DNA from: Hexactinellida sp. DTS-2022
Taxonomy: Eukaryota; Porifera; Hexactinellida
DNA length: 64,000 nt
Assembly (NCBI GenBank): GCA_028753945.1
Contig: JAPNXP010000011.1
Location: 2,232,001 to 2,296,000, forward strand
Direction of reading: 5' to 3'
Below the pieces are notes generated by a model. It was not told where the DNA came from. It saw only the letters and a list, made by a program, of their open reading frames with translations, and did no database searches. The position numbers were made by a program, and so were the translations under genes. Positions 3,949-23,869 of this stretch are shown one piece after another (the stretch's first letter is position 1; each line of letters starts with the position of its first letter).

Positions 3949-4900
3949 GCTGTAAACTGAATGGCAATATCAAAAATGATATAAGTAGTCTCCTAAACGC
4001 AGTTCTAGATGATTAATGATAAATCAGTAATAAATTATATTTTAAGTTTGTTAACAAAAATTTATTGATCAACCATGATTATTGATTATAATTCTTGAGC
4101 CTGATATATTTTTCAAAAATCGTTAAAATCCTAATATATTATGTTTAAAAGTCACTAGATGATCCCAGTCGCGCCCTTTCACGCATCTAGAATACTTTTA
4201 ATTTGAAGGTATCGTCATAGCCTTTCATTTAAAATGGAAAAACCAAAGGTTCATGATGGCTCTCAAAAGTTCTTGAACAATATTGGAAATTATTAAATGC
4301 GCCCGAATCAGGGTGTTATCCAGGCGTATTGAGCGCTCCTAAAGGAGCGTAATTTGATTGGATTTTAATCTAGGCGTACAAAAATCGTGTCTAGGAGTAG
4401 AATATCGAGAGATACTCCCATAGACTTAATACAAAATGTGCAAACTAGGCGTACAAAATGAAAAATGAACGAGCTCAAACTAAATCTAGGCGCGCAGAAA
4501 TTTTTGTCTGGAGAAAGCCTGGCCCGAATCCTAAAATTCTGGTCGGAATGTATTATAATTTTAGACTATATAGGAAGTTAAAATGCATTCATGTACATTG
4601 ATTTCAATACATGCTAATGACAATGTAAACTTCATGATAAAGCTAACTTGAATATTTCATCAACATAATATAATTTGTTGAATTTTGTTCGACTTTGATA
4701 CTGCAATTCTGAAACCACAAAAATTGCTTTTTTTAGAATTGTTGTAACATGATGATCTCATTACACATAACTCTTGATCTCGAATATTTCTCAGCACAAT
4801 AAATTGAATTTTTTGGTTTTCATGTATGCTGAAAACGATGTCTAAAATATCGAGTCAATCTGAGGCGCTCTAAAAATGCTCTATTTCCACTTGTTTGAGG
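3949..4900 (+). repeat. Interspersed repeat family R, copy 1
   Basis: About 0.95 kb that recurs at 22122-23042 (same strand) and in part at 56470-56765 (opposite strand). Shared words include CCATGATTATTGATTATAAT, GTCGCGCCCTTTC and a final CTATTTCCACTTGTTTG. No terminal inverted repeats or coding sequence seen, so the class is unknown. It carries a MITE at 4309-4521. Confidence 0.75.
4309..4521. mobile_element. hAT-type MITE in repeat R
   Basis: Starts CAGGGTGTTATCCAGGCG, ends TCTGGAGAAAGCCTG, flanked by perfect 8-bp GCCCGAAT (4301-4308, 4522-4529). Copy 2 of R (about 22676-22685, reading GCGTCCGAATC) is the empty site, which proves the duplication. Interior carries repeated TCTAGGCGTAC words. 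Confidence 0.92.
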
Positions 4901-16691: not shown

Positions 16692-16763
16692 TATATCCAA
16701 TATATCACTCACTATATATCCAATATCACTATATCCGGGAGCGCTGCATTATCTCGAATTGTT

Positions 16764-17090
16764 ATGTTGTCGATAGCTCGAATTTAGAATGTTGTCGATA
16801 GCTCGACTCAGTTTTTGACTAGGTTGTCGATAGCTCGACTCAGTTTACATAAGTTGTCGATAGCTCGACTCAGTTTACATAAGTTGGCGATAGCTCGACT
16901 CAGTTTATGATATGTTGTCGATAGCTCGACTCAGTTTACATAAGTTGTCGATAGCTCGACTCAGTTTCTGACTAAGTTGTCGATAGCTCGACTCAGTTTT
17001 TGACTATGTTGTCGATAGCTCGACTCTGTTTTACATATGTTGTCGATACCTCGACTAATTTACATATGTTGTCGATAGCTCGACTCATTC
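16764..17090 (+). repeat. MULE left terminal array
   Basis: Eleven units of TTGTCGATAGCTCGACTCAG separated by variable ACATAAG or TGACTAAG linkers. Each unit holds the dyad GTCGA-TAGC-TCGAC. Likely transposase binding sites (inference). Confidence 0.9.
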
Positions 17091-17238: not shown

Positions 17239-18842
17239 ATGGAATACATATCAGACAGCTATAGGCGTAGTAATGGAAAGTTTCTTACAACAACTGATGG
17301 GTTTAAGTATTCTAAATATAAAATGAAAGAAAATACAACATACCTCAGATGTGTTTTATCAAAAATTGGGTGTAAAGGGACAGCTAAATTAAATTTAGAA
17401 ACTAATTTGATATATCCCAATTCAATTCATAACCATGGCATTGATGAGTACAGATCAGGAGTTTATGAATTGAAGACAAAATGTAAGAAAATGGCTCAAA
17501 CTACCAAATATAATTTAAGGAAGATTTTCGATGACGAAACAAGAACTAGTCAGTTTGCAACTGAAATTTCTTTCAATGAGTGTGAGTCTTCTATGTACCG
17601 TTCTAGGAGAAGATTGCAACCTTAGATCCCCCTTACAGCTATAGAATTCTCAGTTATGTTACCCGAATCTACTTTTGCGACTCACTACAAATTTACTGTC
17701 ACGACTAATAACCATACTGCTGTTGTCTTTTATTCTCAACACATGAAAAATTACTTATCAGAAATTTCCAAAATTCAGTCTGATGGGACATTTTATACAG
17801 TGCCAACCCAATTCTCCCAATTATGGACAGTATTCGTGGTAATTGATCGACATGCACTCCCAGGCATACCTACATTGTTTAATGACATCTAAATATCAAG
17901 AACTCTATACTGCAATTTTAGCTAAGATCCATTCTCTCATTCCAGATTTCATACCGAAAATCTCTATTTCTGACTGGGAACCAGCACCGCGAAATTCTAT
18001 GAAAGAAATTTATCCCGCCATCAAAAATCAGGGATGTTGGTTCCACTTTACCCAACGTATCTGGGCCAAAACTCAGAAGCTCGGGCTTGTTCAGAATTTT
18101 CATGGTAATCCTGAAACTGCCAAGTTCATAAGAAATCTAATGGCAATACCATTTCTCCAAGCAAGTTTAATTCGTCCAACCTATGCATTCCTCCAAGTCC
18201 CGGATCTTACAAATCTAGAATCAGGCAAATTGGAGAACTTCGTAAATACTTCAAGAAGAGGTGGATTACTCAAATTGATCCAGAGAAACTTTCTATCTAT
18301 GAAGCTGAAATCACCACCAATAATGCTGCGGGAAGCTATCACGCAAAGCTCAAATCCACATTAAAACTCCTCATCCAAGAGTATGGAATTTTCTAACAAC
18401 TCTAAACAATATGATAGATGACATAGATAATGAATTAGGGAGATTGAGACTAGGTCATAGCATTTCTATGTAGAGGAAATCAAAGCATGTTCTAAAGGAT
18501 CAACAACGCGAGGTTATTAAGGAAAAGTTCAGATCTGGCGAGTTCATTCCTTGGCAGTATCTAAATGCAATGAGCAACACTATTGGTGGTACCTTCACTT
18601 TAGAAGCAGGAAATGAATTATCTGATACTGATGAGTCAGACACTTCAGAGAATGAAAGCGAGAATCCAGTACTGGAGAATATTTGTGTTGTATGTCTGAG
18701 GCCACGGACAACAACTTGGGTATTTCTACCTTGTAAGCACGCTAATTGTTGTGCAGCATGCATCGAGAGAATAGAGGAATTGAATCAGACTTGTCCGGTG
18801 TGACGTGCTCCAATTATCAGTCGATTCCAAATTTATATTTAG
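17239..18842 (+). pseudogene. FLYWCH-MULE-RING transposase relic, copy 2
   Basis: Transposase of the element 16737-19396. Domains in order: FLYWCH finger (17239-17450: TTDGFKYSKYKMKE, YLRCVLSKIGCKGTAKL, NSIHNHG); MULE core with QSDGTFYTVPTQFSQLW (first Asp near 17782), ISDWEPAPRNSMKEIYP (second Asp near 17971) and GCWFHFTQRIWAK; TTNNAAGSYHAKLKSTLK; a C-terminal acidic stretch; then a C3HC4 RING finger (about 18682-18803: CVVCLRPRTTTWVFLPCKHA, CCAACIERI, TCPV). Breaks: an in-frame TAG at 17623-17625, frameshifts near 17885, 18220 and 18370, and TGA replacing the last RING cysteine codon at 18801-18803, after which RAPIIS continues. A transposase fused to a RING is unusual. Confidence 0.88.
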
Positions 18843-18998
18843 TAGTCATGCACTTATATTTATCACTTTTTCATTCATTTACACATTATTTTAATATCTT
18901 AGTAGTAATTAAATATTTCTCTCTAGTACAATATATGTATTCAATAAACAATGGAAAATTTCAACAGTAAATAATTATACATGAAACATTGGGGAAAC

Positions 18999-19370
18999 TT
19001 ATGTAAAACTGAGTCGAGCTATCGACAACATAGTCAGAAACTGAGTCGAGCTATCGACAACTTATGTAAACTGAGTCGAGCTATCAACAACATAGTCAGA
19101 AACTGAGTCGAGCTATCGACAACTTATGTAAATGAGTCGAACTATCGACAACAAAGTCAGAAAGTGAGTCGAGCTATCGACAACATAATCAGAAAGTGAG
19201 TCGGCTATCGACAACATAGTCAGAAAGTGAGTCGAGCTATCGACAACATAATCAGAAAGTGAGTCGAGCTATCGACAACATAGTCAGAAAATGAGTCGAG
19301 CTATCGACAACTTATGTAAAATAAGTCGAGCTATCGACAACATGGTAAATTCGAGCTATCGATAACAATA
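18999..19370 (-). repeat. MULE right terminal array
   Basis: About twelve inverted units CTGAGTCGAGCTATCGACAA with ACATAGTCAGAAA or CTTATGTAAA linkers, mirror image of the left array. One unit has lost bases (GTCGGCTATC). Confidence 0.9.
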
Positions 19371-19975: not shown

Positions 19976-20248
19976 TTATAATCAGAAAATTTAATAATAC
20001 AAATTTAATACATCTGAAAATTTAACCACAGTGGCTTAATTTGGCATTTGGTAAGGAATATGTATCTGGGTTAATTTACCTTATATAATGTATTATTTGC
20101 CTATAGGTTATCGAACATTAGGAATCGATTGCGATAATTAGACCTTCCCTAAGTCTTGCGGTTTTGGACTTATGACGTTATCATAATTTTCCCAAATCTG
20201 GAAATCAAGAAATAATTTCACAATTTTTTGTATTTTTTAGCATCATAT

Positions 20249-21763
20249 TTATTTAACAATAAGAGAATGTACTAGACTATCTATAGATGACTCTATTGTG
20301 TTGTTTGAGTCGTATTTGCTGCAACACTTGGCATACCTTCTAGTGTGATCCTCTTCGCCGCATCTCTCACACCTCAATTTAGAGCGAAATCCTAATAAAA
20401 CTGGATGACTTTCACAAGCTAGCCTAACAAAGATGTCAATAATGTTATCTTCAAAGGATGTCTTTCTTGCTAAATGTTCTCTGTATTTCTAATTAATTTA
20501 TTACAAGCCTCTGAACCTTCTTCAGAGAAACATTTAAAACCATACCCAGAATTAACTTCGCTTAACAATTATTCGGGGAGTGTGCCAATAATTTGTGCAA
20601 TGTGGGAGTGATGTTTGCCCATGGAAATGATTCAAGGATAGAGATAGGTACCTTTACAAGTTTTACAAGTTCATTGGTATTGATCTTTTTTCCACTGTTG
20701 AAGATTCCCAGAATTGCAGATAATTGTGTATTTTTTGAGAGTGCTTCTTTGTGCTGTTGCTCAACTAATGAAGATACACACTCAATGAACTGAGACTCGC
20801 TAGAAAGATTTTTCCAGAGTTCGTTTCCACTTGAAGACATGATGGAAATGGATTTGAAACAAAAAATATCATCGGCTTGATAGAATTATTTTTATTTTGT
20901 TGGTTGTAAATTGTATGACTTCCTGATCCATCTAAACCATCTACTATTTGATAACTAAGCGGGAAATCCTCTACTAATGGACGAGATATTATAGAAAGGA
21001 TTCTGATAAATGTATGCTCTACATATTGGGCGTAGGATACACATGCACCAATTGGTTCTAAATCGTTAGGATACAGCTTTATTGAATAACGTAAAATGAT
21101 ACTGTTTCTCCTATCGACAAACATCTGATAAGCAGGAAATTGAATGTAACTAGATAGTAAATGTTGACGCAGCTTAGTATATTTCCTCTTGCCAATTTCC
21201 AGCATATTAAGAAGGTAAAATGACTTATCAAAATCAACATCTTTCTTGACTACTTTACCAAAATCCCCAGGAAAACTGTCAGTTGCAATTTACTTAGATA
21301 CCTTAGCTATTTGTCTGTTATCATACTCATTAGAAACCAACTCTAGAACGAGTGTAGCAATCTTAATTTCTGAAATGTTTTCCAATTCAGCAAGTACTCT
21401 GATACAGTCTAATACATTTGATGGACGTGATAGCTGTTGTTTAAATGAAAGGGTGTCAATACCCTTCCTATGATGCACTGAAGAATTTGGTTATCAGCTT
21501 CGCAAGAAAGACTCCTCTTCTTCAAATCTGGTTCGAGAAAAACAGCAGAGTTCCAAAATTCTCCACCCAGTGAGTTTGTTAGTCTTCCTGATTGTATCCC
21601 GAACCCTGGTTAGGATTGTGTATATACTATCTCTCTTAGCAACGTTTAATTCAAAATATTCCTCCAATTTGACAATCGTTTGAGAAATATTGTTGTCATT
21701 TTCTTTCAAAATTCTTGCAAAATCAAGCCTGGTTTGTTGGATAGTAATTGGGATTTCAGCCAT
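20249..21763 (-). pseudogene. RAG1/Transib-like transposase relic
   Basis: Minus-strand reading frame of about 500 codons, from MAEIPITIQQTRLDFARILK to a stop at 20249, with several frameshifts (near 21530, 21480, 21290, 20840, 20600, 20495). Near 20912-20944 it reads VDGLDGSGSHTIYNQ, the place of the first catalytic Asp of RAG1. Then IFCFKSISI and NELWKNLSSESQF; then at 20570-20620 NITPTLHKLLAHSPE, and at 20495-20535 CFSEEGSEACNKLIR followed by KYREHLARKTSFEDNI. HKxLAHxPEII and SExGxExxNKLxRxxRxxxARx are RAG1's zinc-binding and third-acidic-residue (E962) blocks. The segment that should hold the second Asp looks deleted between the two. The C terminus has a zinc knuckle, RCERCGEEDHTRRYAKCC. 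No RAG2-like gene or signal-like ends were found. Confidence 0.78.
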
Positions 21764-22121
21764 AGATGAGGAAATAAATATGTAATTCTTTGTTATATTA
21801 TTGAAATAATCTTTATTCTTTATATTATCTTACATTTACGTATATATATTATAAATTTGTAGATTGTCAACATGCCATTTACATATTCCGAAAGGTTTAT
21901 TGTTACATAGCAACAAATAACAGTCATTCGAATTTCCTTAGCAACGTAAATTGACAATGGAATTCGATAACTTTTTAAAAGTTGCGCACTGTTTCGGGAG
22001 CTAAGATTCCATGATTAATTCTTACAACTTTAATCTATAACCTGTAAAATATCTCGTTGTTGTCCGATGAACATTGTTTTTCCGCATACCTGAGAATTTA
22101 AATTTAATAATATTGAAGAAT
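21764..22121. other. No gene seen
   Basis: AT-rich sequence upstream of the RAG1-like relic. No inverted terminal repeat pairing with the region left of 20249. Confidence 0.5.
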
Positions 22122-23042
22122 TTTGGACTTAGAGTTTTTATCAGTCATAAATTATATTTAGGTTTTTTAACAAAAATTTATTGTTCAACCATGATTATTG
22201 ATTATAATTTTTGAACCTGATATAATTTTTCAAAAATAGTTAAAATCCTAATACCGTATTCCCCCGAATAAGCGCAGGGGCTTGAATAAGCGCGGGGTCA
22301 ATAAAAATGACATTGGTATAATAAAATTTATACACATTAGTTGATCACCATAATGTAATTCCATTGATTTTGGCAACTTCGTTAGGTATACTGTTGGTGG
22401 AAACCTTTAGAACCGACCTAAATATTATATTCTGGATTTTTCACAAATTTTTCACGATAATTTTGGTCCACGAAAACAATAAGCGCCGGGGCGCTTATTC
22501 GGGGAAATACGGTATATTATGTTTAAAGGTCATTAGATCACCAAGTCGCGCCCTTTCGCGCATCTAGAATACTTTTACTTTGAATGTATCATCATAATCT
22601 TTCATTTAAAATGTAAAAACCAATTGCTCATGATTGCTCTCAAAAAGTTCTTGAACAATATTGGAAATTGATAAATGCGTCCGAATCATAAAATCCTGGT
22701 CGGAATGTATTATAATTTTAGACTATATAATAAGTTAAAATGCATACATGTACATTGATTTCATACAATGCCAATGCCAATGATATAGCTAACTTGAATA
22801 TTTCATCGACATAATATCATTTGTTGAATTTTGCACTACTTTGTTACTGCAATTCTGAAACCACAAAAATTTCTTTTTTAGAATTGTTGTAACATCATGA
22901 TCTCATTACACATAACTCTTGATCTCGAATGTTTCTCAGCACAATAAATTGGATTTTAGGTTTTCATGTATGCTGAAAAAGATTTCAATAATATCGAGTT
23001 AATCTGAGGCGCTCGAAAATGCTCTATTTCCACTTGTTTGCC
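22122..23042 (+). repeat. Interspersed repeat family R, copy 2
   Basis: Same-strand relative of 3949-4900. It lacks the MITE of copy 1 (empty site near 22680) and carries its own at 22254-22512, for which copy 1 is the empty site (CCTAATATATTATG near 4129). Confidence 0.75.
22254..22512. mobile_element. TA-MITE (CCGTATTCCCCCGAATAAGC ends)
   Basis: Inverted ends CCGTATTCCCCCGAATAAGC and GCTTATTCGGGGAAATACGG; TA on both sides; exact empty site in repeat R copy 1. 259 bp, non-coding. Confidence 0.92.
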
Positions 23043-23869
23043 CGCTGCAGATCACTGACTAAATGACATCAGAGTATTGTACCCCTACACAATAAATCGT
23101 CGCAATAGCCTCTGATACATGCAGTACTTGCGCAAATTTGGCAAGCTGATATGTAAGGCCAAGAAAACTCACAGTGACACAGAATCCGAAGAGAGCTGCG
23201 ACCATTCACTTCACTCCAAATCCGATGAGGATGTTGCACAGACTCTGTGAATTCAGATTACTATTTAATTCCATTGAACATCGCAGACCAGAATCGTTTG
23301 GATCTAGCTCAAGCTATGGTATATTGCAGTCAAAATCTATGCCCGCTACACATCATCCAGCTCATAGTCAATGATGTCATAAAAGCCACTAACGTATCTT
23401 CTGTCCTTGCTTCCCACAGACCCACTGCCAGGTAAAAGCTTCTTTTCTTGCCTAAGATTGGAGGTTTGAGATGGAACACAGTCCTAGTGTAGTATTGATT
23501 ATACGATTCATTCGTTATTTCTTTGGTAAGTAGTGCGTGTGGTTTCTTTCACATGTCTGATTATACTATATACCATTGACATTCGCTATCTCGAACATTT
23601 TGATTCCCCTGACAGCTGGACGTACTTGCCCATAAATTCCGCTTGGTGGTGGGACTACTAGGGCAACTATATAACTAACACATTTGGTATTAAATATTTG
23701 TAATCAGTAAACGATCTGTTGTCCATCTGGTTATATAATTATTGCCAGATATACCTCGGTTATCTATGTCTATGTATGTATATATTTAGTTGACTTTACT
23801 ATCTCTAACTACATATCTAGTACTTTGTTATCTCGTTGTCATATCCTGCACATATCTCAAGATACAAAC
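23043..23869. other. No gene seen
   Basis: Between repeat R and P-like copy 2. The left end of copy 2 should lie here but its terminus was not recognised. Confidence 0.5.

Follow-up and report, generated by a model that had tools for sequence, protein, structure and literature searches.

Vertebrates assemble their antibody genes with the RAG1 enzyme, and the consensus heptamer of the vertebrate RSS is CACAGTG. Two models of origin are laid out in PMC7204232: in one, RAG arose when a Transib gained RAG2; in the other, a RAG transposon lost RAG2 and became Transib. Subgroup I Transibs, reported from ctenophores, Hydra (Transib-9_HMp) and Ca. Thioglobus, have been described as the RAG2-less group closest to RAG1L and proposed as the intermediate (PMC9435367). 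According to the same paper, the zinc region with alpha11-alpha12 is found in RAG1L and in Subgroup I and was lost in Subgroup II, and the Subgroup I tail, CTT1, is a knuckle of the Cx2Cx3GHx4C type. Published work takes this knuckle to be ancestral.

Here we analyse a locus in a 64,000-nucleotide stretch (the window) of the genome of a glass sponge, Hexactinellida sp. DTS-2022. The locus is very probably a dead cut-and-paste RAG1/Transib transposon with Subgroup I Transib traits, the assignment to Subgroup I being made by traits taken from one paper (PMC9435367) and compared by description, not by a shared clade. This kind of transposon is already known, having been published as Subgroup I Transibs; new are the glass-sponge host, the scale, the apparent recent activity, the exact RSS heptamer and the variation among sister families in having or lacking the knuckle. 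A sponge host is absent from the main text of PMC9435367. No report of such elements in sponges was found in the literature searched, most subscription journals and bioRxiv lying outside its scope, nor in passages of PMC4411706, PMC8355894, PMC13337447 and PMC8075586.

A broken transposase gene in the window

An earlier note, made from the letters of the window, had placed a RAG1-like fossil at 20249-21763 and assigned it to the RAG1/Transib superfamily. We built a profile from 19 relatives, leaving the window copy out, and it matched six separate minus-strand frames in the window, in the correct order (E 1.7e-4 to 1.5e-44). The same profile gave no match at E <= 10 on one shuffled and one reversed window, ruling out a chance origin of the matches. 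Together the frames outline a broken minus-strand gene that starts with the ATG at 21763 and extends to around 20252. Its N-terminal coding segment lies at 21497-21763 (E 1.7e-4 for the frame 21497-21829), followed at 21293-21490 (E 8.8e-14) by a segment aligned, through a profile-to-RAG1 alignment, to the region matching the RAG1 nonamer-binding domain (NBD), within what we take to be the limits of that domain. The segment at 20768-21289 (E 1.5e-44) holds the first catalytic Asp, in VDGLDGSGSH (20944-20915). Two overlapping frames at 20473-20885 hold the HKLLAH zinc-binding block and the catalytic Glu block SEEGSEACNK (20565-20885, E 3.5e-28; 20473-20568, E 5.1e-10), and the C-terminal domain and tail occupy 20252-20488 (E 5.5e-20). 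Within the tail, at 20324-20371, is the CCHC zinc knuckle CERCGEEDHTRRYAKC, which has a homologous tail in knuckle-bearing relatives.

The motifs listed in the earlier note are thus largely as described: VDGLDGSGSH, CFSEEGSEACNKLIR, KYREHLARK and the terminal C-x2-C-x4-H-x6-C are all present in window frames, but the frame through the zinc-binding block reads HKLLAHSPNNC, and 'HKLLAHSPE' can be obtained only with a change of frame. Searched by themselves, five window fragments had no significant RAG1/Transib match in Pfam, and the fragment 20765-21289 alone had none in the PDB; the superfamily assignment therefore depends on intact copies at other places in the genome, which do match RAG1/Transib.

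Extent and decay of the window copy

Comparison by blastn with two complete copies, L049 and L050, extended the relic to 20027-22142 on the minus strand, so that the interval first proposed contains the coding relic but the transposon is larger. Identity over aligned bases is 91.6% to L049 and 94.6% to L050, both of which are themselves broken. The 5' end is truncated, the first ~342 bp present in complete copies being missing. A 645-bp block has also been deleted, the same total against each of the two relatives, with its junction at 20806-20808 on the minus strand; the second catalytic Asp went with it, confirming a loss that had been suspected from the letters, and so did the zinc-region stretch. 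Counted over the whole element, not the coding part alone, gaps whose length is not a multiple of three make up 16 of 20 against L049 and 17 of 18 against L050. The family to which the window copy belongs looks older, from these sequences, than the families with near-identical copies described below.

The 3' end of the window copy is preserved (CACAGTGG), and L049 and L050 have the same end. The terminal inverted repeat (TIR) of this minus-strand element, read inward on the plus strand, starts with CACAGTGGCTTA at 20027-20038, its heptamer being 20027-20033; CACAGTGGNTTA was matched once in the window, at 20027-20038, where 0.02 matches were expected. The second motif of this TIR was read by eye against the family pattern at 20054-20062 (minus strand), the long-spacer position at about base 28 of the end. 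On the 3' side, GTTAA at 20022-20026 lies where complete copies lead one to expect the 5-bp target duplication; its 5' partner was lost together with the 5' end.

Relatives in this genome and in other data

Across the 18 contigs of the 112-Mb genome, the first-Asp fragment matched at least 150 stretches, its own among them (150 scored out of 345 candidates, some stretches being two pieces of one copy). Full-length relatives, which the earlier note had proposed to look for, are among them: 13 of 20 related loci, fetched at 7 kb and selected because they had long frames or near-identical matches, contain stop-to-stop frames longer than 700 aa. The transposase gene of related copies is ~710-750 aa, and ORFs of 710-750 aa had no RING match in Pfam. 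In one family three pairs of copies differ at 15, 23 and 26 of ~3,077 bases, and in a second family pairs differ at 15, 31 and 36 of ~3,009 bases. Such near-identity suggests that these two families moved recently. The description as a fossil fits the window copy, a broken relic, but the group is more than a fossil: it has many copies, some of them near-identical and open. Another repeat family, ~71-96% identical over 290-1,470 bp, adjoins or cuts five of the loci (L036, L033, L041, L044 and L046).

Protein relatives were also found outside this genome. Among 8,000 candidates scored, 15 of 71 relatives carried a species name (14 of 62 in another search), in every case Oopsacas minuta. In the tree, a number of families from this genome are paired with an outside protein, and in the pair L047-P0037 the partner is a named Oopsacas protein. 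In a protein search that started from HzTransib plus RAG1L and sought RAG1L or Subgroup I references, the named rows among the best 120 of 1062 were insects, and searches of GTDB genomes and of IMG/VR contigs with short peptide patterns yielded nothing useful. In the accessible portion of the Oopsacas genome paper (PMC10280926), DNA transposons are put at 15.44% and RAG/Transib is not named. For another glass sponge, A. vastus, PMC10282587 gives an 80-Mb genome in which scaffolds above 40% GC were treated as bacterial; the small, AT-rich genome studied here, with a GC content of 0.29-0.38 in the window, would fit such a host, though as a weak indication.

Ends, target duplications and gene content of complete elements

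Both ends were visible in 21 of the 26 loci examined, and the ends and 5-bp duplications that the earlier note had suggested seeking were present. With a search pattern that fixed CAC and TG and left the middle of the heptamer free, the 5' heptamer was CACAGTG in 20 of 21 elements (CACATTG in L050) and the 3' heptamer was CACAGTG in all 21, an element thus reading CACAGTG...CACTGTG. A perfect 5-bp target duplication flanks 16 of these 21 elements and is lacking in five. The selection of loci favoured intact copies, and the fractions should not be taken as values for the whole genome. A narrow 5'-end pattern matched the genome nine times, eight of them at an L035-type end, and a control pattern gave no match.

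The fifteen elements delimited first, for which a target duplication was required, measure 2,975-3,735 bp and carry one gene each. Apart from transposase pieces, no ORF longer than 123 aa was present in these 15 complete elements, and the RAG2-like neighbour sought at the suggestion of the earlier note was not found. At genome scale, none of the 18 places matched by one kelch model adjoins any of the 150 listed transposase places, and a RAG2 model, run without a positive control, found nothing. The lack of a second gene in the 15 elements rules out a RAG1L-RAG2L element.

The two ends of an element share 9-18 outer bases (4 in L050), inside which lies a second motif, ~GGAARTAGG; its usual start is near base 19 at the 5' end and near base 28 at the 3' end. 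We compared the two ends in 14 family representatives, dropping 7 further copies of the same families. With offset 0 excluded, the best shared block fell at an offset of 9-10 bp in 11 of 14 families, the exceptions being L042, L046 and L052. The summed match at offset 9 was 6.86, compared with a maximum of 5.43 at any offset in 300 shuffles; the sum at offset 0 (5.71) also exceeded the shuffles, owing to the shared outer bases. When elements were run singly, 14 of 15 gave 9 or 10 bp; compared with shuffles of the same element, however, the block stood out only weakly in L035, L037 and L038 and did not reach significance in L042, L046, L049 and L050. The window copy shows one end only. A difference of 9 bp separates the 4- and 13-bp spacers of the Aureococcus RAGL (Tao et al., PMC9435367).

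Relationship to Transib, RAG1L and RAG1

At E <= 1e-3 the family profile matched only HzTransib (3e-46), lancelet RAG1L (1e-19) and RAG1 (1e-16 or weaker) in the PDB, and RAG1 was the only Pfam family matched at that threshold, by 17 of 19 sponge-type members. A better match to another DDE family was not seen for the relatives in either database, which rules out such a family. All 19 of the 19 relatives aligned share three residues, D280, D382 and E632 (L040 numbering), which fall on the catalytic blocks of RAG1, RAG1L and Transib; the family profile also aligns with the RAG1 segment that holds the NBD.

The earlier note had judged the relic closer to RAG1 than typical Transib is. Mean identity over RAG-core columns was 25% to HzTransib-like proteins, 21% to RAG1L and 19% to mouse RAG1. 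When every aligned column was counted, the values were 21.9%, 21.3% and 19.0%, with Transib and RAG1L nearly tied. By these comparisons the overall similarity of the sponge-type group is nearest to Transib, not to RAG1. Other traits, the tail among them, lean to RAG, as judged from the proteins. The stretch from CxxC to His in the zinc region measures 62-64 residues in 31 of the 32 sponge-type proteins (the pattern did not match P0014) and 58 and 62 residues in two RAG proteins, RAG1L and RAG1, whereas it is 25-28 residues in 17 of 17 HzTransib-like proteins; its equivalence to alpha11-alpha12 was judged by length and alignment. In Pfam, three of six sponge-type proteins pass the 25-bit cut-off of the RAG1 model (best 36.7), one scores 20.0 and two are unmatched, while six of eight HzTransib-like proteins reach E <= 1e-3 but all eight stay below the cut-off (best 23.5). 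The proposed closeness to RAG1 therefore stands for the ~62-residue zinc region and the Pfam RAG1 fit, but not for profile similarity, which is highest to HzTransib. This mixture of Transib and RAG traits is the one that defines Subgroup I, of which the sponge group is a candidate member.

Subgroup I Transibs resemble the sponge elements in having a single transposase gene without RAG2L, a zinc-region stretch that matches RAG1 alpha11-alpha12 in place and length, an NBD-like region, asymmetric TIRs and similarity to both Transib and RAG1L (PMC9435367). A CCHC tail that resembles CTT1 occurs in part of the sponge families. Unlike them, several sponge families are without the knuckle, and the sponge elements have the exact CACAGTG heptamer.

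The same mixture could be explained if the element were a true RAGL (ProtoRAG-like) transposon minus its RAG2L gene, of RAG1L and not Transib origin. The zinc-region spacer, as long as in RAG1L and RAG1, the CCHC tail and the Pfam RAG1 model, which fits better than for HzTransib-like proteins, would agree with such an origin, and ProtoRAG/RAG1L-RAG2L elements (lancelet, 6b40; protostomes, PMC7204232) are alike in zinc-region length, tail, 5-bp duplications and CAC ends. They differ in that the sponge elements are without RAG2L, no kelch gene being present in 15 elements, and show lower profile similarity to them; the published protostome TIR consensus, CACTWMC..., differs from the sponge CACAGTG. 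Profile similarity is best to HzTransib, and HzTransib-like proteins are also the more identical ones when the RAG-core columns are compared.

Two single residues bear on the same question, R848 and E649 of the mouse protein, which we took as the sites to compare. In vertebrates R848 is a residue linked to suppressed transposition. Its position is occupied by Ser or Thr in all 23 of the 32 sponge-type proteins that the pattern matched, by Thr in HzTransib and by Met in lancelet; the vertebrate residue is thus absent. The E649 position is mostly Pro (21 of 32 sponge-type proteins), as in HzTransib. Both sites place the sponge proteins near HzTransib and, for R848, apart from lancelet, and we regard a RAG1L origin as unlikely.

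An ordinary Subgroup II Transib that acquired its zinc knuckle by convergence seems just as improbable. HzTransib (PDB 6pqn) and HzTransib-like proteins, which we took as Subgroup II, share with the sponge elements the DDE core and a single gene, and HzTransib gave the highest profile similarity. However, in an unrooted tree 26 sponge-type rows were split from 17 HzTransib-like rows (5 of them named, all insects) with 100/99 support, the two RAG rows lying on a very long branch. The zinc region that is longer by ~35 residues is missing in 17 of 17 HzTransib-like proteins, and the CCHC knuckle was matched in none of the 17. Asymmetric ends also speak against Subgroup II, although published Subgroup II ends can be asymmetric too.

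The knuckle occurs in one clade of families and is missing in other sponge-type families. With L044 omitted from the count (its 3' end is truncated) and six rows short of the C-terminus omitted from the tree, the knuckle-bearing rows form one branch with 95/95 support and a further change falls at P0024, so that two changes are needed among 25 sponge rows (unrooted). The tree would fit either a single gain within the sponge clade, which would suit convergence, or several losses. The tail itself varies: the window copy has D for G before the His, and the spacing after H differs among members. A tie between the knuckle and TIR bases 9-12 was rejected, L052 (knuckle) and L053 (knuckle lost) sharing GCA there; on the sequences, these bases seem to follow ancestry, and we therefore claim no link between knuckle and TIR. 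The 9-10 bp offset is kept in 5 of 6 knuckle-less families.

Domestication of a RAG1-like transposase as a host gene would account for related open frames in this genome and in Oopsacas, but the window copy is broken at many places, copies have transposon ends and target duplications, and near-identical dispersed copies point to mobility, making this by far the least credible reading.

Interpretation

As a dead transposon with Subgroup I traits, the window copy can do none of the steps of binding, pairing, cleavage and insertion. In intact relatives, the core of a transposase dimer would bind the heptamer, and the NBD-like N-terminal part, with the knuckle where present, would bind the second motif. 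One short-spacer end would be paired with one long-spacer end, a nick would be made beside CAC, cleavage would follow by hairpin formation, and insertion would proceed with a 5-bp stagger. The window copy decayed by truncation, the 645-bp deletion and many small gaps.

Vertebrate RAG1 and its RSS share with the sponge elements the catalytic blocks, the NBD-aligned segment and paired signals with a difference of about one helical turn between them. Unlike vertebrates, the sponge elements are without RAG2 and without the RING N-terminal region, their second motif is not nonamer-like, and their offset is 9-10 instead of 11 bp. One tentative reading, to which we give somewhat less than even weight, is that glass sponges hold a living pre-RAG2 stage: RAG2-less and recently mobile, with CACAGTG, ends whose 12/23-like asymmetry amounts to one helical turn, and a RAG1-type zinc region. 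In the same tentative spirit, this zinc region would be the one on which RAG2 docks, and part of the families would add the CCHC tail. On that reading RAG2 came later than both its docking surface and the signal code, and a comparison of sister families that have the knuckle with those that lack it is an experiment done by nature on the function of the tail. The finding of many diverse, apparently recently active elements in which RAG2 was not found, but whose ends and zinc region are of RAG type, provides testable material on RAG origins and raises the questions whether unlike ends are paired without RAG2, whether vertebrate RSSs are cleaved and what the tail contributes.

Other features of the window

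A dispersed repeat at 22143-23050 abuts the truncated 5' end of the relic. It has a second window copy at 4026-4897, 89-92% identical, and occurs also in L018, L052, L012 and others. On the other side, at a distance of about 1.2 kb from the relic's 3' end, the plus strand at 17843-18803 encodes a MULE transposase domain (PF10551), whose match at E 4.5e-6 falls just short of the cut-off, and after it, in a further frame, a RING finger (PF13920, E 1.3e-8). Several overlapping inverted and tandem repeats, ~79-88% identical to one another, lie at 16737-17089 and 18996-19368. Finally, a near-perfect hairpin of ~80 bp at 1487-1572 matches the Rfam model of mir-31 on either strand. Two more near-full copies and many arm-length matches occur elsewhere in the genome, and because it recurs in this way the hairpin has the look of a small inverted-repeat element that has dispersed, for which the name mir-31 is probably wrong.
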